IMG/VR virus record: IMGVR_UViG_3300044995_000052
Span: 1 to 38,004 of that record
Length of the DNA: 38,004 nt
Direction: 5' to 3' (one strand)
Source of the DNA: a virus
Position 1 is the first letter of the stretch. Every line of letters starts with the position of its first letter. Both the position numbers and the translations under genes were made by a program. Below are positions 310 through 38,004 of the stretch, piece by piece. The notes under the pieces were generated by a model, which saw only the letters and a list, made by a program, of their open reading frames with translations, did no database searches and was not told where the DNA came from.

Positions 310-348
310 AGCAAGCAAAAGACCCAGACAACCAACGCTGCCTGGGTC
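310..348 (-). terminator. intrinsic terminator after the 153-residue gene
   Basis: Read on the minus strand, GACCCAG (348-342) pairs with CTGGGTC (327-321) around a 14-nt loop. It is followed by TTTTGCTTGCTT. It lies 31 nt past the stop codon of the 379-840 gene. Confidence 0.75.
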
Positions 349-378
349 AACACAACCAACTTAGCTGACTAGCTTAGC

Positions 379-840
379 TTAGCTTTCGCTTTCGTCTGCG
401 TCATCAGCATCGTCACTAAATCCTGGGTCTTCATAATCATAATCGTTATCATCGTCATCATCCCACTCATAGTGGAATTTGACGTATTTACCCGGGCGAC
501 TGTCCATGTCGCCCGTTGTTTTGTCAAAGTTAAAAGCAACCAGGTATTTGGCATTTGGTAAATGCCTAACTTCTAAAAGCCAACTAGCGCAATCATCAGC
601 TAGTTTTGCTACTCTATTGTAGGTTTGAGAGTTAATCTGCGGCCGCATTGTAGCCAGTATTTTGGCTGCAATGGCTGTTTCTCTGGCTGCTTTTTCGCAG
701 CATCCTAACATTGTTTGTATTTCGTCTACATGCTCAGTGAATTCTGGTGAGTCAAGCCATTCCAGCATATCTATGAGGTCTTCCGCATGAACCTTATGGT
801 AGCGGAGTTCTAAAAGAATTTTACGAACTTCAAATTCCAT
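379..840 (-). CDS. small protein with strongly acidic C-terminus (cassette 3)
   Basis: This is a 153-residue protein of unknown function. The first ~120 residues are mixed and probably helical. The last ~30 are extremely acidic, with a run of Asp around residues 126-131 and an Asp/Glu/Ser-rich end. No enzyme motif, signal peptide or membrane segment is visible. The start is supported by the leader ACACAGGAGAAAACA directly before ATG. The gene forms a complete cassette with its own promoter (879-907) and terminator (310-348). Single-gene cassettes under host-like promoters at a genome end suggest early expression and host takeover. An acidic early protein could be a DNA mimic, but that is inference from composition only. 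Confidence 0.75.
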   Translation of the reverse strand: MEFEVRKILLELRYHKVHAEDLIDMLEWLDSPEFTEHVDEIQTMLGCCEKAARETAIAAKILATMRPQINSQTYNRVAKLADDCASWLLEVRHLPNAKYLVAFNFDKTTGDMDSRPGKYVKFHYEWDDDDDNDYDYEDPGFSDDADDADESES

Positions 841-878
841 TGTTTTCTCCTGTGTTGTTCCTTTTCATTTACGTTTCC

Positions 879-907
879 ATACTAACGCAGCTTCCTAGCC
901 CACGCAA
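879..907 (-). promoter_or_regulatory. sigma70-like promoter of cassette 3
   Basis: On the minus strand, -35 TTGCGT (907-902) and -10 TAGTAT (884-879) are separated by exactly 17 bp. The promoter shares its layout with those at 1609-1637 and 2123-2151, including GTAAA upstream of the -35 and AGCTGC just before the -10. The -10 ends 39 nt before the ATG at 840. Confidence 0.75.
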
Positions 908-946
908 GCACTTGCAACAATTGTTTACAAAATGCAGCTTATGTAG

Positions 947-1065
947 CCTAGCAAACTCCTGCATGTCGATCGGAATTGGGGAGTTGCTTTGGTTGGTTGG
1001 CATTTGCTGCTTGTGCTAGCGTGTGTAGCTTAGGAAACTCCGGTAACTTGATCGGGATTCCGGAG
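947..1065. repeat. two imperfect 37-bp direct repeats between cassettes 2 and 3
   Basis: Copies at 947-983 and 1029-1065 match at 27 of 37 positions by my alignment. The conserved cores are AAACTCC and GATCGG, and both copies end in GGAG. A third, partial copy lies at 278-300. The second copy is itself partly palindromic (CTCCGG ... CCGGAG). The repeats fill most of the gene-free stretch 841-1185, which otherwise holds the cassette 3 promoter and the cassette 2 terminator. Confidence 0.6.
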
Positions 1066-1117
1066 ATGAGATACAGCGGAAAAAGCCAAGCGAAAGCAGC
1101 GCCAACAAATAGGCTAT

Positions 1118-1146
1118 AAAGCAAAAGCCGCTGCCAACGCAGCGGC
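1118..1146 (-). terminator. intrinsic terminator after the 129-residue gene
   Basis: A perfect 8-bp stem forms on the minus strand. GCCGCTGC and GCAGCGGC surround a GTTG loop and are followed by TTTTGCTTT. It lies 40 nt past the stop codon of the 1186-1575 gene. The strength of this signal argues against the weak open frame at 948-1163 that overlaps it. Confidence 0.85.
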
Positions 1147-1185
1147 GTCAGTAAATTCAGCAAATAAGCTGATTGGCTGTGTTAT

Positions 1186-1575
1186 TTAGTTCCTAGGCAA
1201 AAGCCGCTTGGGCTTTTGCTGGGGTGGCAGTAGCATTGGCGCTTGCTCAAACAACAAGCGCAACGAACCTAGTAACACAGAGCCAATGTCCTCACGATCT
1301 AGCTTGTCGATGTTGTTAGCCACCCACGCTCCGAAATCAAGCGCGGGTAAATCAGGATTAACCCAATACGGCTCAATTGGGTAGTTTGCCGCTTCACACA
1401 GCTTGTGTGCAACTGCCAGTTGAATGGCTGTTGCGTGGTCGACACCTAGTGTTTGTTCAATATTTTCTTTAAGTTCATAGTCGGTAATTACTGACTTTAT
1501 TGCTATTATTAAGGCGTCTTCCGAAATCCCTGCTGTTTTTAGCTGGGATAAAATGGTTGTCAATTTAGTTGTCAT
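1186..1575 (-). CDS. unknown small protein (cassette 2)
   Basis: This is a 129-residue protein that I do not recognise. It is predominantly helical in character, with a Pro/Lys/Arg-rich basic C-terminus. There is no membrane segment, cysteine cluster or nuclease motif. The start is well defined: AACACAGGAGGAAAGTCA precedes ATG, giving a full Shine-Dalgarno AGGAGG at good spacing. It stands alone between its own promoter (1609-1637) and terminator (1118-1146), so it is probably a monocistronic, host-polymerase-transcribed early gene. It shares no obvious sequence similarity with the products of the other two cassettes, although their promoters are related. Confidence 0.75.
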   Translation of the reverse strand: MTTKLTTILSQLKTAGISEDALIIAIKSVITDYELKENIEQTLGVDHATAIQLAVAHKLCEAANYPIEPYWVNPDLPALDFGAWVANNIDKLDREDIGSVLLGSLRLLFEQAPMLLPPQQKPKRLLPRN

Positions 1576-1608
1576 TGACTTTCCTCCTGTGTTTCTTGCT
1601 TTAGCTTC

Positions 1609-1637
1609 ATACTAAAGCAGCTACACAGGATGGTCAA
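1609..1637 (-). promoter_or_regulatory. sigma70-like promoter of cassette 2
   Basis: On the minus strand, -35 TTGACC (1637-1632), a 17-bp spacer and -10 TAGTAT (1614-1609). Around this core the sequence is clearly related to the promoter at 879-907: both have TTGTTGCAA upstream of the -35, and both have AGCTGC before the -10. It is placed just downstream of the terminator of the preceding cassette. Confidence 0.8.
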
Positions 1638-1686
1638 GCAATTGCAACAAATCTTTACATGATCTCTTTACATGGTCACACAGCCA

Positions 1687-1717
1687 AAATAAAAAGCCCA
1701 ACTTAGTAGCTGGGCTT
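1687..1717 (-). terminator. intrinsic terminator after the 112-residue gene
   Basis: On the minus strand AAGCCCA (1717-1711) pairs with TGGGCTT (1700-1694) around a 10-nt loop, followed by TTTATTTT. It lies 37 nt past the stop of the 1754-2092 gene. Confidence 0.85.
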
Positions 1718-1753
1718 GCATTAATTAAATTATCAACATGTTAACAAAAATCA

Positions 1754-2092
1754 TCAACGTAGAAAATCATCAACATAGAAGGCAAGCAAGAGCTTAACAA
1801 CTATGCGTTTGGTATCTTCATCAGCTGAACAGCTCGATATTATTTCGGCTAGCATGTCACAAGCTCTTATGAAGTCAGTTTCGTTTTTTATTTCATAAAT
1901 GGGCGCGAATGCTCCCATTAACTGGCTTTTGATAGCTAGCTTGAGGAAATTTTTGTATTCTATTTGTGCTAGCTTGGCTAGCTGACGTATGTCAGCTAGC
2001 ACGTAGCTGTAAGTAAAAGTCTCTAAAATTTCCTTAAAATCTCCGTACCAGATTTTTGTTCGTATGATGGCCATAGCTTCTAGTAGGTTCAT
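1754..2092 (-). CDS. unknown small protein (cassette 1)
   Basis: This is a 112-residue, mostly helical protein with mixed charge and no recognised motif. The start follows AACAAGGAGGCAATT, a strong Shine-Dalgarno site. It has its own promoter (2123-2151) and terminator (1687-1717). It lies just beyond the end of the long replication and tail unit (stop at 2169). No terminator is visible between them, so read-through transcripts could also express it late. A perfect 10-bp inverted repeat lies inside the coding region at 1977-2000. Confidence 0.75.
   Translation of the reverse strand: MNLLEAMAIIRTKIWYGDFKEILETFTYSYVLADIRQLAKLAQIEYKNFLKLAIKSQLMGAFAPIYEIKNETDFIRACDMLAEIISSCSADEDTKRIVVKLLLAFYVDDFLR
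1977..2000. repeat. perfect inverted repeat inside cassette 1 gene
   Basis: GCTAGCTGAC (1977-1986) and GTCAGCTAGC (1991-2000) flank the loop GTAT. A 10-bp stem with a 4-nt loop could form a stable mRNA hairpin about 30 codons into the gene, or a protein-binding dyad. Confidence 0.6.
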
Positions 2093-2122
2093 AATTGCCT
2101 CCTTGTTGTTTGCTCTAGCTCC

Positions 2123-2151
2123 ATACTAAAGCAGCTAAGGAGGAAAGGCAA
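2123..2151 (-). promoter_or_regulatory. sigma70-like promoter of cassette 1
   Basis: On the minus strand, -35 TTGCCT (2151-2146), a 17-bp spacer and -10 TAGTAT (2128-2123). The extended context TGCTTTAGTATGGAGC is nearly identical to the other two cassette promoters. The -10 ends 31 nt before the ATG. Confidence 0.75.
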
Positions 2152-2168
2152 GCCACCTTAATAATTCT

Positions 2169-4895
2169 TTACAATTTTGTCCTTCTAAGTCCTTTGCGGC
2201 TCGTGTCAAACTGTACGCCAATAATGGAAAGAGAAGGATCGAATTGGCAAGCTAATTGCCAAGCTTCAGCATGCCCGAGCATGGGGATGCGAAGATTGAT
2301 GGAATTGCCAGGCGCAAGCCGCACAGCAAAAGCAGCATTCAAAAGATCGTTGCCTTGATAGGGAGGAGCCAAGGCGATTGCCCAAGCTTGGCATTCGTCA
2401 AATCGATCCTCATAATTGAACACAGGAAGAACCAACCGTGTGATGAGGAAACCAGAGCCGCGCAACAAGAGATTGCAGGCACGAATTCTGTGAGCTCGAT
2501 TCAAGCGATCTGAAGTAAAGGCTTTGGTCACAAAAGCGGATTTAATAGGCAGATTTTGCATTCCTCCTGTGTGTTCAACAACCAAAGCTGCTGAAGTGCC
2601 AATAACACGAGCATGGTTGTCTCCTTCAGCTTGGCAGCACCGGGTATTGAAAAAGCTGACCAATTCAGCAGGAGTGACTAAATTGCTCATCTCAGTGGGC
2701 GAAGGCAGCACTTGCTGCTGGGTGCCAGGAATGGAGAGGGTCATTAGAGAGCTCCAGCTTGCTAAGCCAGTGAGGTCAGTTGTGGCTGTATCCCATTCAC
2801 ACAGGATAATGGCTGTGTTACTGCCAGAGCCATTGGTGGCTTGAGTGGTTAGCGTGAAGCCATCAAAGCTGTTGTTAAGCTTTGGAGGTAATAGGGTAGC
2901 TAACTTTATGATTGACCAAGTAAGCGAATCAAAATTGAATTGTAGCAATTCTCTTGTGTTGGAAAATTGCACCAAAAAGCTTTTCAATTTAGGTGACCAA
3001 ATCAGAGCATGGGGTGATTTAGTTTGGAAGTAATTGCTGACATGAGCCGCTAAGTTGGTATTTTGCAAATCTTGAATGTCGTTGTTGTACTCCAGAACAA
3101 ACAATCCATTGCGGCTAATGTAAAAGAGTTTGTTTTCAAAGAGGTCAAAGGAAGCTGATGAAGGAGCAATTTCTCTGCTCAACAACACAGTAACAGCTGA
3201 CGCAGCAGAAGGAGTTACGGTTGCTGATTCTCCACTAATGCGGAAGATGCCCACGTCAGTTGCCACAACAAGAATGCCAAACACAGACTTAACAGCCACG
3301 ACTTTGGAACAATTTTCTTGGAGAGCTACAACATAAGCAGAAGCAGGTGAAAATGCCATGGAACTAACTTGAAAATTGTTCCAGCTAATGCCTCTATATT
3401 CCCAATCTAAGTGAGAAAAAGCCACCTTATTGTCTCGCCCAGACAATACAATCCGATTGCCCAACACGCCAACAAGATTTGGATAATCATGATCTACTGT
3501 GTTGGCCAGGTAATTGTAGCCATAGAGAGGGACAATCCAGCCATCTCCAACTTGAATAGCACCTTGTTCATTTGGGTCTAAGTTGACCAAATTGGTTTTG
3601 GCTTCAAATCGATAGGGCTTAGCCAACACAAGTTCAACAACAGCTGATGTGTCAACACCTGGGTTACGATAAGCAGACACAGAATTGTCATGATTAACCA
3701 CTGCGAATCCAGTGGCTAAGCCACTAGTAACCAACCCAGAAGATGAAAAGAAAGTGGGAAACGCAACAGGATTAGTATTAACACGGATCAGCACATTACT
3801 AACATCCACTCCATTTCCTGTGCCAAGTAAAATGCGACGGCCACGGCCAATGAGGATGGTGTTCGCTTGGCCACCTGCTTCTAAGGCACCAAAAGAAACA
3901 AAATAAGGCGTTGGGTTACATGTCATGCCACGGCCAGGTAAAAAACTACCATCAGATTGGCTCCACTCATCAGCAGTGGTTGGCTGTCTGTTGGCTTTGA
4001 AATCGTAAACTTGTGCAGGATCAGCGTTGTTTTTAAACACAAAATAATAATCAGCTGTGTAGTCTTGCAATGCAGGCTCATTTATGATGGGATTGTCGGC
4101 CAGTTCTTTAGGCACAGGCACATTAACATCTAAGGGAATTTGGTTGCGCCTCACAGCAAAATTCCACAAGTAGTTGCCTGGGTAGTAATTAGCATCAGCA
4201 CACCAAAACCAAAAACAAGCACATAGCCTAATGGTGGAGCCAACGCTGGCCCAGCTAAAAGGAGTGGTGGAACTCACAGTTACGTTGGCGTTGGTTTGTG
4301 CCAAACTCGTTAGCAAATGAAACGTTCCTTGGGGTGCTCTGATGATGGTGTTAGCTGTGTTTAGAGTGTTGTTGGCGGCTGGATAAACTTTCAACGAAAG
4401 TGACATTGAATTGCCGCTAACTGAGTTGATTGTGCCATTAAGCGAAACCAAAGCCAAGCACACCAAAGGAGTGGATTTAGTGGCAATCAAAACAAAGCAT
4501 TTCCAACCACTAATATGAGCAACAAAAGAAGGTGTTTCATTGGTGCTTTCATTTCTAAACACACCAGGTTTGTAAGAAATAAGTTGGTAATTGGCTAAGT
4601 TGTCTTTTGCAAAAAGCAGCAAATCAATGCCTGCTTTCATGAGCACAAAGTCTGTGTTTTGAAAAGCAAACCTCCACACATGGGATGAACTGGAAGCTGA
4701 AGTGAGAATGGCTATCACTTTACTTCCTAACCGAGATTTGATTTCTCCTGTGTTGGAAATGACAGCATTGATTAGCTTGTCCAAATAAATGCTGTCTGTG
4801 CCTTGATTGACAGTGGCTGACGACAATCCAGCAAAACCAGCCACAATAGGAGAATCAGGCTCTTGCACAATGTTTTTGGGATTAATTCTAGTCAT
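2169..4895 (-). CDS. tail tubular protein B-like (T7 gp12-type nozzle protein)
   Basis: This is a ~908-residue beta-rich virion protein with very few charged helices and many Ser/Thr/Asn/Val-rich strands, as expected for the large tail tube or nozzle proteins of T7-like phages (T7 gp12 is 794 residues). Assignment rests on size, composition and context, including an N-terminal region that fits this family. It is the last gene of the minus-strand replication and tail unit. I chose ATG at 4895; an in-frame TTG at 4910 would overlap the upstream stop (4903-4905), and neither has a convincing Shine-Dalgarno site, so coupling with the upstream gene is likely. Its partner tail tubular protein A is 26 kb away in the other virion unit (31114-31707), whereas the two are adjacent in T7. 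Confidence 0.6.
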   Translation of the reverse strand: MTRINPKNIVQEPDSPIVAGFAGLSSATVNQGTDSIYLDKLINAVISNTGEIKSRLGSKVIAILTSASSSSHVWRFAFQNTDFVLMKAGIDLLLFAKDNLANYQLISYKPGVFRNESTNETPSFVAHISGWKCFVLIATKSTPLVCLALVSLNGTINSVSGNSMSLSLKVYPAANNTLNTANTIIRAPQGTFHLLTSLAQTNANVTVSSTTPFSWASVGSTIRLCACFWFWCADANYYPGNYLWNFAVRRNQIPLDVNVPVPKELADNPIINEPALQDYTADYYFVFKNNADPAQVYDFKANRQPTTADEWSQSDGSFLPGRGMTCNPTPYFVSFGALEAGGQANTILIGRGRRILLGTGNGVDVSNVLIRVNTNPVAFPTFFSSSGLVTSGLATGFAVVNHDNSVSAYRNPGVDTSAVVELVLAKPYRFEAKTNLVNLDPNEQGAIQVGDGWIVPLYGYNYLANTVDHDYPNLVGVLGNRIVLSGRDNKVAFSHLDWEYRGISWNNFQVSSMAFSPASAYVVALQENCSKVVAVKSVFGILVVATDVGIFRISGESATVTPSAASAVTVLLSREIAPSSASFDLFENKLFYISRNGLFVLEYNNDIQDLQNTNLAAHVSNYFQTKSPHALIWSPKLKSFLVQFSNTRELLQFNFDSLTWSIIKLATLLPPKLNNSFDGFTLTTQATNGSGSNTAIILCEWDTATTDLTGLASWSSLMTLSIPGTQQQVLPSPTEMSNLVTPAELVSFFNTRCCQAEGDNHARVIGTSAALVVEHTGGMQNLPIKSAFVTKAFTSDRLNRAHRIRACNLLLRGSGFLITRLVLPVFNYEDRFDECQAWAIALAPPYQGNDLLNAAFAVRLAPGNSINLRIPMLGHAEAWQLACQFDPSLSIIGVQFDTSRKGLRRTKL

Positions 4896-7900: not shown

Positions 7901-8058
7901 TGCATTAGCCTCTCATTGTTTTTGAGGGCTGTGTCTAAAAAATCAATAGTTGAGCTCTTGATCTTATCAGCTGCAGCCAGGGCTTGTTCCCACACAGCCT
8001 GACCAGCCTTTTGAGCTAAGAAAAACGATTCGTCACTTCCAATGTAGCGAGTGTTCAT
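4903..8058 (-). CDS. large internal virion protein with M23 peptidase and transglycosylase-like domains
   Basis: This is a 1051-residue protein. Residues ~10-580 are Ala/Glu/Lys/Gln-rich and likely coiled coil. Residues ~635-745 form a zinc metallopeptidase of the M23 (LytM) type: H652 and D656 in RHTGVDFG, and H730/H732 in HLHFEVR. Residues ~860-960 resemble a lytic transglycosylase: a helical IPAEWLVDIIQQECGW with putative catalytic E886, then GIIGFD. Near the C-terminus there is a CPVC plus HRH cluster. Its role is probably an ejected or tail-tip protein that opens peptidoglycan during DNA entry, analogous to T7 gp16. The M23 assignment is strong and the transglycosylase assignment moderate. 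ATG 8058 lies 5 bp after the upstream stop and has no clear Shine-Dalgarno. Confidence 0.8.
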   Translation of the reverse strand: MNTRYIGSDESFFLAQKAGQAVWEQALAAADKIKSSTIDFLDTALKNNERLMQLSAQNAAAKAAAASSANAAGLAALADAGLEYLALRQKKELEKAKLQEELAKQEREKLLKANFEKATMELGQLIQDYFDSGAFFRDIDTEKGPITGPQSFRDAALKALTNVGELDPQDKIKLLNKINEITESTSQQRLRKLENKVEQEQARRADVVAAGLEIKLGLLFANLKQAGNAQQAQPWLDQITNEIKNFMAMETTLPEEEKLRVASQILRRAAAAYDIKAEKFAKYNADLINFQKFAEEYNRALLEFRLPVSRDYNNLDVFKAKVALAKAKYGDWSQDVVKINEAERLANETIELQLQQQKIQEEAIRNAGKQFPFSNAFSVFVAANAISDPFFAERLLASPYATNPAIKNGLWLAEEYKKWEKERAELQVDLAKSNIEYYRMDLRRADAMAAVINKLAERSTANELSPADQEFLSLLQQNAPELFAIYQAKLQNPKAPIDTKALNDALNLENTAITRVQQAILEKRAAQEAALVAKYSHLAQAGLLLDRQQIAKLAETNRSRLQQELANAAKFLDEAKVRSVSPSPPLGIQPNFDGSSTFAPDVDGSGRVRVAPRARLQNIRVGNQVIISPVQAGAYAPITNAFGAPRPGNKRHTGVDFGVDGDEKAVALVSGVAYVGRANGYGNFIDIIGDNGYVYRYAHQQALVKTGQRVKAGEPISFSDGSGINIGGRHLHFEVRNKANFDSKGNYIPSYGWDGVVDPIEHLKKLSINDSNILKPRSNGVFFARTHPWLKAAANAALTSHGAIQANVFQMPGSPPRPANQVHNVQRPVSKGFMPFTRGETQTYDYNADYGYSILRNKPSWRKAIVDAAKELKIPAEWLVDIIQQECGWRINLRHGGRITGIIGFDDPTAGNKPFEQQVRMAVDYYKKVGWLDVVRRKGPDASVADFWILSRAGTVPLKRLGGKNMRQFIIDGGNPYELRMNDLGTTFGYELELLGKWVGRRYQIPFSKKRNSRVNRNAAISMSYDPNCPVCNELLASGSWVAHRHDNPIA

Positions 8059-9137: not shown

Positions 9138-11132
9138 TTATTTGGCTTCAAACCAGCTTTCGCCATCATGCCACTCGCCATTGATGCACACACCAGGCAG
9201 TATGTCAAATCGGTTGTTCCAAATCCTATTAAGGTCCTGCAACAATTGCGGTGCCTTGTCTGCATCAACTTCCACAATAGCTTCGTCGTGGATGATGTTG
9301 ACAAAAGAAGCTCCGGCTTTTTCTACACAGGGAAGAGATTCAATCAACAGAAGGTGAAGTACATCCCGGGCAGTTTTTTGAATGATGAAATTGAAGCTCA
9401 TGCGCTCGCCTTTGAAGCGCTCCCATTTGTTTTGGCTAAGCAGTTCTGGATACACGCCCCGTGCACCAAATGGATTGCTCACCCAAGGCATGCCATCTAC
9501 TTTTGCTCTTTTCCTAGCTGTGCTCCAGCAAAGTTCCTTGAGTTTGGCAATAGAGGGTTGGCTGGAGTGAACTTGATCAAACACCCTCTGTGCCTCTTCA
9601 AAGGTGGGCGTAAGACCGCGTTTGAAAATGAGATTGGCTGAGCCTCCGTAAATGAGGAGGAACAACACTGTTTTGGCCAAGCTGCGGCTAATGCCCCAGT
9701 TAGTGGCATTAGCTGTGTGAACGTCCTCTCCAGAATTTATGATTTTTAGCAGCTTATCGTCTTTGGTGACGTTGGCTAAAAACCAAGCCAACACCACAAC
9801 TTCTATTCTGTCTAGGTCAGCAACTAAAATGCGCTTGCCTGGAGGAGCACAGAATAATTGCCTAAACCTCATGCCATAGTCTTTGAGAGTGCGATAGTCT
9901 GGGTGTTTATCGTCCCAAGGACGTGGCATGTTTTGTAAATTTGGTGAGTTGCTGGCCAACCTGGTTGTGCGTGTCCGTGCACTAACAAAATTGCAATGAA
10001 TGCGACCGTCCTTGTGGATGTGTTTTCTTAGCGTCTTACACAGATCAAGGAGCTTGGTGCACTTAATTATTGTGGCCAATGGCAAATGCGGCGGCAATTC
10101 ATCTGCCACTGCTGCAAAAAAGGTTTTGTTCATTTTTGGCCGTCCTTGTGGCGTTTTGTCTGCTTTAGCTAAGGCAGATGGAGCGTCTTTTTTTAAAACC
10201 CACCAAATATGGCCAGTTGCAGCACTGGCATTAAAAGGCACCAACGGACAATGATTGCCTAGATAATAGGGATCGGAAGCCACCGTTGTTCCATTGGCAT
10301 CCGCATAATAAGACATGTTGCGTTTGTTACGGTAGTAGCCTCTCTTGTATATCACCTCATGAGGCACAAATTCTTGTGTTTTTGCATCCCACTTCAGCTT
10401 GGGCAAACCAGGATAGCGGTTAGTGATTTGGTCTTTGGCTTTTCTAAGTTCATCTTCTAAATCAAGCATCAAGGCCTGTAGCCTTTGCGAGCTAATATAA
10501 ATGCCATTTTGCTCAAGCTGCGTTAGCACCCGCAACATTGGCAGCTCAATTTTCAACAAGGAGTTTAAGAACTTAGGATTGGCATTAAACCAAGCTGCCA
10601 GTTTTTTATACAGAAAGTAGGTGGCTTCAACGTCTTGCAAGCAATAGCGGGTGATCAGCTTAATTGCGTTGGCGTTTTTGGACCAATCAATTGACCAAAA
10701 CTGCTCTAATGTGGTTGGTTTGGTTGTGTTTTTAAACACACCTTCTTTTTCAAATTCCTCAATTATGTGAAGCTTTTTTCCAGTGAGGGCGTCTAATGAC
10801 AGCTTGCCAACTGCTGCTGTATTCTTCACATAGGCCATTTGCAGCGTACAAATAAGCAAAGCAGAGGGAGGCACTTTCAACCCTCTGCTTTGCAACACAC
10901 ACAGGTCGAATTTGAGGTTGTGACCAACAAGGGCATATCCTTCCTGCAGCTTTTCCTCAATAAACTCAATTGCCCTTTTAACGTTTTTAGAATGTCGCAA
11001 AGTTCGTTTGCCGGTAGCGTCCACTTCCAACATGCCAATGGTATACACAGGCAACTCAGGATTGAAGCGCGTATCTGAAGTCAGCCCTTCTGTGTCGATT
11101 ACTAACAATTTATTGCTGGGCAGTTTGGCCAT
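9138..11132 (-). CDS. family A DNA polymerase with 3'-5' exonuclease (T7 gp5-like)
   Basis: This is the 664-residue replicative polymerase. The exonuclease domain shows D13-x-E15 (VIDTEG), GHNLKFD with D76, and YCLQDVEAT with D167. The polymerase domain shows motif A around residue 436 (VADLDRIEVVVLAWF), motif B around 481 (RSLAKTVLFLLIYGG) and motif C around 616 (IIHDEAIVEV). In motif B the Phe/Tyr selectivity position is Phe. Motif A is divergent: the usual Ser before Ile-Glu is replaced (DLDRIE), and the Arg after Glu is Val. The start is ATG 11132, chosen because GAGGAG lies 8 nt upstream; the open frame extends to 11189 without such a site. It overlaps the end of the upstream nuclease gene by 23 nt. 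Confidence 0.93.
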   Translation of the reverse strand: MAKLPSNKLLVIDTEGLTSDTRFNPELPVYTIGMLEVDATGKRTLRHSKNVKRAIEFIEEKLQEGYALVGHNLKFDLCVLQSRGLKVPPSALLICTLQMAYVKNTAAVGKLSLDALTGKKLHIIEEFEKEGVFKNTTKPTTLEQFWSIDWSKNANAIKLITRYCLQDVEATYFLYKKLAAWFNANPKFLNSLLKIELPMLRVLTQLEQNGIYISSQRLQALMLDLEDELRKAKDQITNRYPGLPKLKWDAKTQEFVPHEVIYKRGYYRNKRNMSYYADANGTTVASDPYYLGNHCPLVPFNASAATGHIWWVLKKDAPSALAKADKTPQGRPKMNKTFFAAVADELPPHLPLATIIKCTKLLDLCKTLRKHIHKDGRIHCNFVSARTRTTRLASNSPNLQNMPRPWDDKHPDYRTLKDYGMRFRQLFCAPPGKRILVADLDRIEVVVLAWFLANVTKDDKLLKIINSGEDVHTANATNWGISRSLAKTVLFLLIYGGSANLIFKRGLTPTFEEAQRVFDQVHSSQPSIAKLKELCWSTARKRAKVDGMPWVSNPFGARGVYPELLSQNKWERFKGERMSFNFIIQKTARDVLHLLLIESLPCVEKAGASFVNIIHDEAIVEVDADKAPQLLQDLNRIWNNRFDILPGVCINGEWHDGESWFEAK

Positions 11133-16229: not shown

Positions 16230-16258
16230 AATCTAACACAGGAAATTGGCTGTGTCAA
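16230..16258 (-). promoter_or_regulatory. main promoter of the minus-strand replication/tail unit
   Basis: On the minus strand, a perfect -35 TTGACA (16258-16253), a 17-bp spacer and -10 TAGATT (16235-16230) preceded by TG one base upstream (extended -10). The 17-bp stretch TTCCTGTGTTAGATTAG (16244-16228) recurs with one mismatch in the facing promoter at 16532-16548. The leader to the reductase ATG is about 95 nt. Confidence 0.8.
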
Positions 16259-16649: not shown

Positions 16650-16713
16650 ACATAGAGGGAGGGTATTTAGGTGAAGTTGCAATTGACAGGGGGTAGATGG
16701 CCTTAGTTGCAAT

Positions 16714-16863
16714 CATTCAATTAGCGGCCTCTACAAGGGCCTACAAGGCCTCTCTAAGTTGCTTCAGGTGGTAAACACTATCCAGCTAAAAACAAAGGCC
16801 TTCTAGGCCATTCTAGAGGGTGCAGTTAGCCAAAGCTAGTGGGGCCCCTACTGCATTAGCTGC
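16714..16863 (+). repeat. 150-bp leader element, copy A (inverted partner at 37728-37876)
   Basis: Read toward the amidase gene, it begins CATTCAATTAGCGGCCTCT and ends GGGGCCCCTACTGCATTAGC plus TGC. The minus-strand sequence of 37876-37728 matches about 119 of 150 positions by hand alignment. Runs of 19 to 20 bases are identical, including AAAACAAAGGCCTTCTAGGC. Both copies lie in the same orientation relative to the gene they precede. Within the element CCTCTA can pair with TAGAGG, GGCC with GGCC, and GCTAGTG with CATTAGC, so structured RNA is possible. Confidence 0.85.
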
Positions 16864-16911
16864 TTTCCATTGGCCAACCACGTATTCATTAGTAGCAAGG
16901 AGGTTGTGATT

Positions 16912-37596: not shown

Positions 37597-37727
37597 CTTG
37601 TCACTTTCCTTTTATGTGGTTGAGCTGGCAGCTTATAAGAAAAACTTATAGCTGCATTAGCTAGTTGCCTTAGCTCTTGCTTTGGCTGGCCATTTTATTG
37701 GCTGTTTTCAGAACTTGGCTTTGGGGA
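37597..37727 (-). promoter_or_regulatory. leader of the virion unit
   Basis: This is the untranslated region between the 150-bp element and the first gene. It contains an inverted repeat, GCTTATAAG (37631-37639) and CTTATAGC (37645-37652) around AAAAA, which could be a hairpin or a dyad. No convincing -35/-10 pair is visible on the minus strand, so the promoter must be weak in consensus, regulator-dependent or upstream in the repeat region. Confidence 0.4.
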
Positions 37728-37876
37728 GCTGCTAATGCTGAAGGGGCCCCACTAGCAAAAGCAACTACACCCTCTAAAATCGCCTAGAAGGCCTTTGTTT
37801 TGGGCTAGCCAGTGTTTCATACCTGCACAATTTTAGAGACACCTTCTAGGGCCTTACAGAGGCCGCTAATTGAATG
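37728..37876 (-). repeat. 150-bp leader element, copy T (inverted partner at 16714-16863)
   Basis: Read on the minus strand toward the terminase genes, it begins CATTCAATTAGCGGCCTCT and ends GCATTAGCAGC, like copy A. The best-preserved parts are the first 19 bp, a 20-bp block around AAGGCCTTCTAGGC, TAGAGGGTG, and GCTAGTGGGGCCCCT. The two copies face each other 21 kb apart, each directly upstream of its unit's first gene. Confidence 0.85.
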
Positions 37877-37879
37877 TTT

Positions 37880-38004
37880 GCTAATGAGGTGCCGTTACAA
37901 AGGCTAATGGGGCCCTACCGCATTAGCAGCACCCCATGCTAATGAGGTGCCGTTACAAAGGCTAATGGGGCCCTACCGCATTAGCAGCACCCCATGCTAA
38001 TGAG
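37880..38004. repeat. 58-bp tandem repeat at right edge (2 full copies plus 9 bp)
   Basis: Perfect copies lie at 37880-37937 and 37938-37995, and a third begins at 37996 and is cut by the window end. Each unit contains the hairpin GCTAATG-GGGCCCTACCG-CATTAGC, which is the same motif that closes the 150-bp leader elements. The array is directly adjacent to copy T. Candidate roles are origin iterons, terminase recognition or an upstream regulatory array. Confidence 0.92.

Follow-up and report, generated by a model that had tools for sequence, protein, structure and literature searches.

Three small-gene cassettes with homologous predicted promoters in an accessory island of a podovirus near the Saffermanviridae

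The stretch of DNA analysed here (the window) is the whole virus record IMGVR_UViG_3300044995_000052, which comprises 38,004 bases and is probably incomplete. Near one end of the window lie three small units. The first-pass annotation had described three small genes, each with its own promoter (a distinct -35 hexamer, a 17-bp spacer and TAGTAT as -10), a Shine-Dalgarno sequence and a terminator 31-40 nt after the stop, and all of these elements were located. The strand was absent from that description; all three units are on the minus strand. Their features, with a palindrome lying between two of them, are the following.

2156..2174, minus strand: upstream element 1, TTGTAAAGAATTATTAAGG, overlapping the stop of the tail gene
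2151-2123, minus strand: promoter 1, TTGCCT-17-TAGTAT (-35 at 2151-2146, -10 at 2128-2123)
2092-1754, minus strand: gene 1, 112 aa, pI 5.1, predicted with low confidence to be all-helical
1717-1694, minus strand: terminator 1, 10-pair stem with T-rich tail, kept in L003
1642..1660, minus strand: upstream element 2, ATGTAAAGATTTGTTGCAA
1637-1609, minus strand: promoter 2, TTGACC-17-TAGTAT (-35 at 1637-1632, -10 at 1614-1609)
1575-1186, minus strand: gene 2, 129 aa, predicted helical domain (pLDDT 79.9)
1146-1127, minus strand: terminator 2, 8-pair GC-rich stem with TTTTGCTTT tail
1038..1065, unstranded: palindrome CTCCGG-N16-CCGGAG, located after unit 2 and before unit 3 (expected count from 100 shuffles: 0)
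912..930, minus strand: upstream element 3, TTGTAAACAATTGTTGCAA, an imperfect dyad
907-879, minus strand: promoter 3, TTGCGT-17-TAGTAT (-35 at 907-902, -10 at 884-879)
840-379, minus strand: gene 3, 153 aa, N-terminal part probably homologous to gene 2, acidic C-terminal tail
348-321, minus strand: terminator 3, 12-pair stem, kept in L003

The Shine-Dalgarno sequence is GGAGG for genes 1 and 2 and GGAG for gene 3, and the terminator stems follow the stops of genes 1, 2 and 3 at 37, 40 and 31 nt, respectively. The stretch from the tail gene to promoter 1 showed no terminator, and late transcription from the long tail unit may therefore also extend into gene 1.

The window encodes a podovirus gene set (terminase, portal, scaffold, major capsid, tail, peptidase) together with DNA polymerase, primase-helicase, ribonucleotide reductase, ThyX and an amidase. 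Its capsid protein is closest to that of Anabaena phage A-4L (37% identity over 98% of the protein) and shares 32-34% identity with those of PP and Pf-WMP3; the tail protein is 25% identical to its A-4L counterpart. Judged by these related capsid, tail and terminase genes, the phage is placed near the Saffermanviridae (A-4L, PP, Pf-WMP3 group). Because these nearest capsid relatives all come from filamentous cyanobacteria, its host is probably a freshwater cyanobacterium. No RNA polymerase gene was found among the window's annotated proteins, and A-4L is also without such a gene and has many bacterial-type promoters (PMC9410186). The cassettes are thus presumably transcribed by the host polymerase, for which sigma-70-type promoters would be expected. 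No lysogeny genes were found in the window. The window starts with an array of 19-bp units (1-146) and ends with one of 58-bp units (37879-38004), two different perfect tandem arrays at which the assembly probably broke.

The cassette promoters share the form TTGNNN-17-TAGTAT, preceded by an upstream TGTAA..TTGCAA element. They had been described as alike over about 55 bp, and this likeness was recovered over a compared span of 59 bp, from 30 bp upstream of the -35 to the end of the -10: the promoter pairs match at 39, 36 and 40 positions, above the maximum of 33 (mean 14.9) among 300,000 random pairs of stretches from the same window. With the hexamers left out, the pairs match at 29, 25 and 31 of 47 positions (random 99.9th percentile 22, maximum 27). 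Most of the likeness is thus outside the hexamers, and the shared core consists of TGTAAASAATTGTTGCAA upstream, GCTTG at the -35 and AGCTGCKTTAGTATGGAGCT around the -10. A generic sigma-70 score places two of the cassette promoters 11th and 37th within the window and leaves the third under its cutoff. Taken together, the comparisons support homology of the promoters rather than strength, which is only moderate by generic sigma-70 weights. A matrix trained on the three sites, informative solely for the absence of other copies, found no fourth copy in the 38-kb window. When all viral contigs were scanned with the promoter pattern, 13 stretches were retrieved, of which only the one in contig L003 belongs to a true relative; the others were taken as chance occurrences since the shared upstream element is missing. 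The promoter type is absent from A-4L. An NtcA-type site (GTA-N8-TAC) in the upstream element, read by eye, was rejected for its misfitting spacing. Promoters for a phage single-subunit polymerase were also set aside: no such gene was found, and the elements, with their constant 17-bp spacer, fit sigma-70. Elsewhere in the window, a good sigma-70-type promoter (TTGACA-17-TAGATT, 16230-16258, minus strand) precedes the ribonucleotide reductase and replication unit; it is without the upstream element of the cassette promoters.

None of the three cassette proteins had a match in Pfam, PHROG or PADLOC, and NCBIfam gave sub-threshold matches only. Curated profiles of known takeover and anti-defence proteins did not match any of them. 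A tblastn search of isolated phages with genes 1-3 and gene D (see below) returned no matches at E up to 1, and the cassette proteins were not found in A-4L or other isolated phage records. Gene 1 alone had no matches in viral contigs, nor did a gene-2 alignment find relatives in GTDB genomes. The three proteins had been considered unrelated to each other. For genes 2 and 3 this no longer seems tenable: plain sequence similarity is low, but hhalign aligns them in register over 87 columns (P 0.0012), with a profile score of 24.2, whereas 100 column shuffles gave 9.2 at most, although a reversed profile also attains 14.1. They are probably divergent paralogues, few sequences standing behind these profiles. 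For gene 1 the claim stands as far as profile comparison goes, which detects no relationship with genes 2 and 3. Neither did profile comparison support gene D or the repeats of the L025 198-aa protein (see below) as further paralogues of genes 2 and 3. A low-confidence model of protein 1 has a helix layout similar to that of protein 2, which is no proof of kinship. Protein 2 is modelled as all-helical; the pLDDT of 79.9 is that of the best of five models, the other four reaching 62 or less. A structure search with this model gave no fold match above noise in PDB or among viral models. The C-terminal tail of protein 3 contains 17 acidic and 0 basic residues in 30, and within this phage only protein 3 has such a tail; the L025 relative of gene 2 encodes a similar one with 19 acidic residues. 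Acidic tails can serve in binding basic host proteins. As a pointer to host-protein binding, the tail is only a lead.

The full three-unit array was found in one close relative, L003 (13 kb), whose large terminase is 96% identical to that of the window. There, the end of the tail gene is followed by the three units, their order unchanged, then by gene D, which is convergent and has a sigma-70-type promoter of its own, and then by the small terminase gene. From this gene order, the two window ends are probably neighbours in the genome, with gene D possibly within the gap. Gene 1 has its ortholog at L003 607-939 (65% identity), gene 2 is 67% identical to its L003 counterpart and 31% to a relative in L025, and gene 3 shares 48% identity with the L003 gene. 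Orthologous promoters of the window and L003 are 76-78% identical over 75 bp (promoter 1, 76%) compared with 52-72% for non-orthologous pairs, so each promoter was inherited with its gene. Terminators 1 and 3 are conserved in L003, and terminator 2 has a different stem sequence at the equivalent place.

In L025, with a large terminase 75% and a capsid protein 85% identical to those of the window, the equivalent place holds, in inverted orientation, a 198-aa gene that is internally duplicated and preceded by a cassette-type promoter (TTGTAACGAAATATTGCAA upstream, TTGACG-17-TAGAAT). It is followed by the gene-2 relative with its long acidic tail, in an apparent two-gene unit. The L025 island also contains an HNH nuclease gene behind TTGACA-17-TATAAT. 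This free-standing gene (9795-10175, minus strand), with its perfect consensus promoter, encodes a protein with weak similarity (E about 1e-5) to the HNH part of Cas9. At the equivalent place L027 has an amidase gene and gene D, and the three cassettes are absent; L005 also carries gene D. The cassettes are thus present in L003, replaced in L025 and absent from L027, always between the tail and terminase modules. Such varied gene content at one place makes the locus, by comparison of these genomes, an accessory island between the two modules. Gene D (128-131 aa; L003 3155-3541, L005 1648-2043 and L027 7018-7407, all minus strand) carries a TTGCA[TC]-17 promoter of its own and, at the C terminus, the conserved motif SLFP..D.DEF. 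It adjoins the cassettes in relatives and, in the window's genome, is probably located in the gap. The window also contains two copies, 79% identical, of a noncoding element about 160 bp long, one at 16701-16864 in a divergent promoter region and the other, inverted, at 37727-37889 preceding the small terminase gene. Counterparts are found at L003 4157-4389, L005 2708-3158 and L027 7558-7667. This element may serve as an origin, as a packaging signal or as a late promoter region.

The cassette block has diverged far more than its surroundings. Between the window and L003, 61-83% of four-fold degenerate third positions differ in the three cassette genes versus 13-33% in a set of six core genes, one of them the tail gene abutting the block; pooled, the differences amount to 56/76 in the block and 177/839 in the core (Fisher p 2.5e-20). 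In the cassette genes, pN is 0.20-0.35 and pS 0.74-0.88, with pN/pS below 0.4 in all three. An excess at four-fold sites is beyond the reach of selection on the proteins, and its simplest reading would be that one of the two phages got the block from a more distant relative. The block thus probably has its own history and was exchanged by recombination. That the promoters are kept at 76-78% identity despite strong coding divergence implies selection on them, and this conservation is the best evidence here that the predicted cassette promoters work.

The comparison with relatives also bears on the plug-in architecture proposed by the first-pass annotation. Self-contained units conserved in L003 and the accessory nature of the island agree with this proposal, but the paralogue-like genes 2 and 3 do not. 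Replacement of genes behind conserved promoters is seen in one instance, L025; L003 keeps all three genes in the same order. One-by-one swapping of cassettes is not supported, as the excess divergence affects the whole block in L003, the sole close relative. Relatives in which the genes occur solely within the long unit would have contradicted the annotation; the units of L003 retain their own promoters and terminators.

With modest confidence, we lean towards the following reading of the locus as a whole. Host RNA polymerase would produce a separate transcript from each unit, probably shortly after the DNA has entered the cell, with the terminators keeping the three units independent of one another. 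The products, small, mostly helical and acidic proteins, would most likely bind host proteins and thereby redirect host metabolism or blunt defence. The array may have grown at least partly by duplication of whole cassettes, rather than by three independent acquisitions, as the paralogue-like genes 2 and 3 suggest. Homologous recombination, probably within the core genes on its flanks, would carry the block from one related phage to another, such that the proteins vary widely and the promoter and terminator signals stay conserved. Small acidic proteins produced early usually target host machinery or defence, and the host-directed role is suggested by precedent, that of the SPO1 module; by this analogy, early timing and a host-takeover or anti-defence role are plausible.

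The cassettes could instead be ordinary morons with neither an early nor a takeover role, being neutral or providing a late benefit, e.g. as superinfection exclusion factors or structural accessories, and located by chance at the end of the tail unit. They directly follow the tail genes and share their strand, and gene 1 could be read late since no terminator precedes promoter 1; this would agree with the alternative, as would the lack of any functional match for the cassette proteins. However, the promoter and terminator of each unit appear to be kept under selection despite saturated coding divergence, which would be needless if the long unit expressed the genes, and we regard this alternative as rather unlikely.

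Another possibility is that a single host or phage factor uses the upstream element TGTAAASAATTGTTGCAA as its operator, the helical proteins regulating transcription, possibly from their own promoters; the promoter likeness would then reflect shared control and not cassette duplication. The element is indeed conserved with the promoters, L025 included, and forms an imperfect dyad in the gene 3 units (14/19 positions symmetric in L003). However, most copies show no significant dyad, and at promoter 1 the 3' half of the dyad is missing. Moreover, no DNA-binding domain is recognisable, two of the proteins are strongly or clearly acidic, and there is no fold match, which makes a regulatory array improbable.

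The palindrome between units 2 and 3 (1038..1065) has weaker copies in the window at 955-986 and 283-301. Copies are also located at about 1647-1677, 1722-1752 and 2404-2432 in L003, and at 7936-7954, 8019-8037 and 9365-9498 in L025. It is intergenic and often followed by TTTSCTANGCTACACACGC, and CCGGAG[AGT] is confined to the island in the window, L003 and L025. A similar site with shorter spacing lies upstream of a peroxiredoxin-like gene in five cyanobacterial genomes; a link to the host on this basis was rejected, the arm spacing being different. The island might be a dedicated exchange site, in which whole cassettes, with the island-only palindrome on their flanks, are duplicated, inverted and swapped through recombination at repeated promoters or palindromes, supplying fast-changing host-interaction proteins of a new helical family. 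We consider such a site unlikely. Finally, very fast evolution in place of diversifying host-interaction genes, instead of block exchange, would fit the high protein-level divergence and the variable gene content, but it is very unlikely because positive selection does not lift four-fold divergence from about 21% to 74% and pN/pS is below 0.4.

On the favoured reading of host-read, self-contained cassettes, the island predicts an early action of the cassette proteins that is directed against the host. For podoviruses of filamentous freshwater cyanobacteria, little is known past the structural and replication genes, and few host-takeover factors have been defined. The island offers a short list of proteins without detected relatives in the searched collections, provided with ready-made host-type promoters. 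The combination of saturated coding divergence and conserved promoters may also be a simple way to spot such islands in other phages.

Several known systems resemble this arrangement. Phage morons, described by Hendrix 2000 and Juhala 2000 (as cited in PMC6814406), are likewise genes with their own promoter and terminator, set between core modules and transcribed independently; here, promoter and terminator are recognised from sequence signals. Morons are mainly prophage genes acting in lysogeny, whereas no lysogeny gene was found here, and they do not as a rule form three tandem units sharing one homologous promoter. The takeover genes of SPO1 are small and early, with their own strong signals (PMC6873191). 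Like those of the SPO1 host-takeover module (PMC6873191, PMC10531801), the cassette genes are small, lack recognisable relatives and combine host-type promoters with good ribosome sites. That module, however, comprises about 24-26 genes in several operons within the terminal redundancy, compared with three single-gene units between tail and terminase genes here, and its early expression and toxicity were demonstrated, whereas the cassettes are known from their sequence alone. In the start-associated sequences of Cluster K mycobacteriophages (PMC3203893), one group of phages likewise repeats a conserved sequence before genes that belong to different families; there it is a 13-bp element in 11-19 copies at translation starts, and here three whole sigma-70 promoters with an upstream element. 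A-4L, PP and Pf-WMP3 (Saffermanviridae) are podoviruses with related capsid, tail, terminase and replication genes, but A-4L has neither the cassette proteins nor their promoter type. The arrangement thus appears to be of a known kind, that of moron-like, host-takeover cassettes, and what seems new is the set of proteins, the promoter type and their occurrence in this group of phages.
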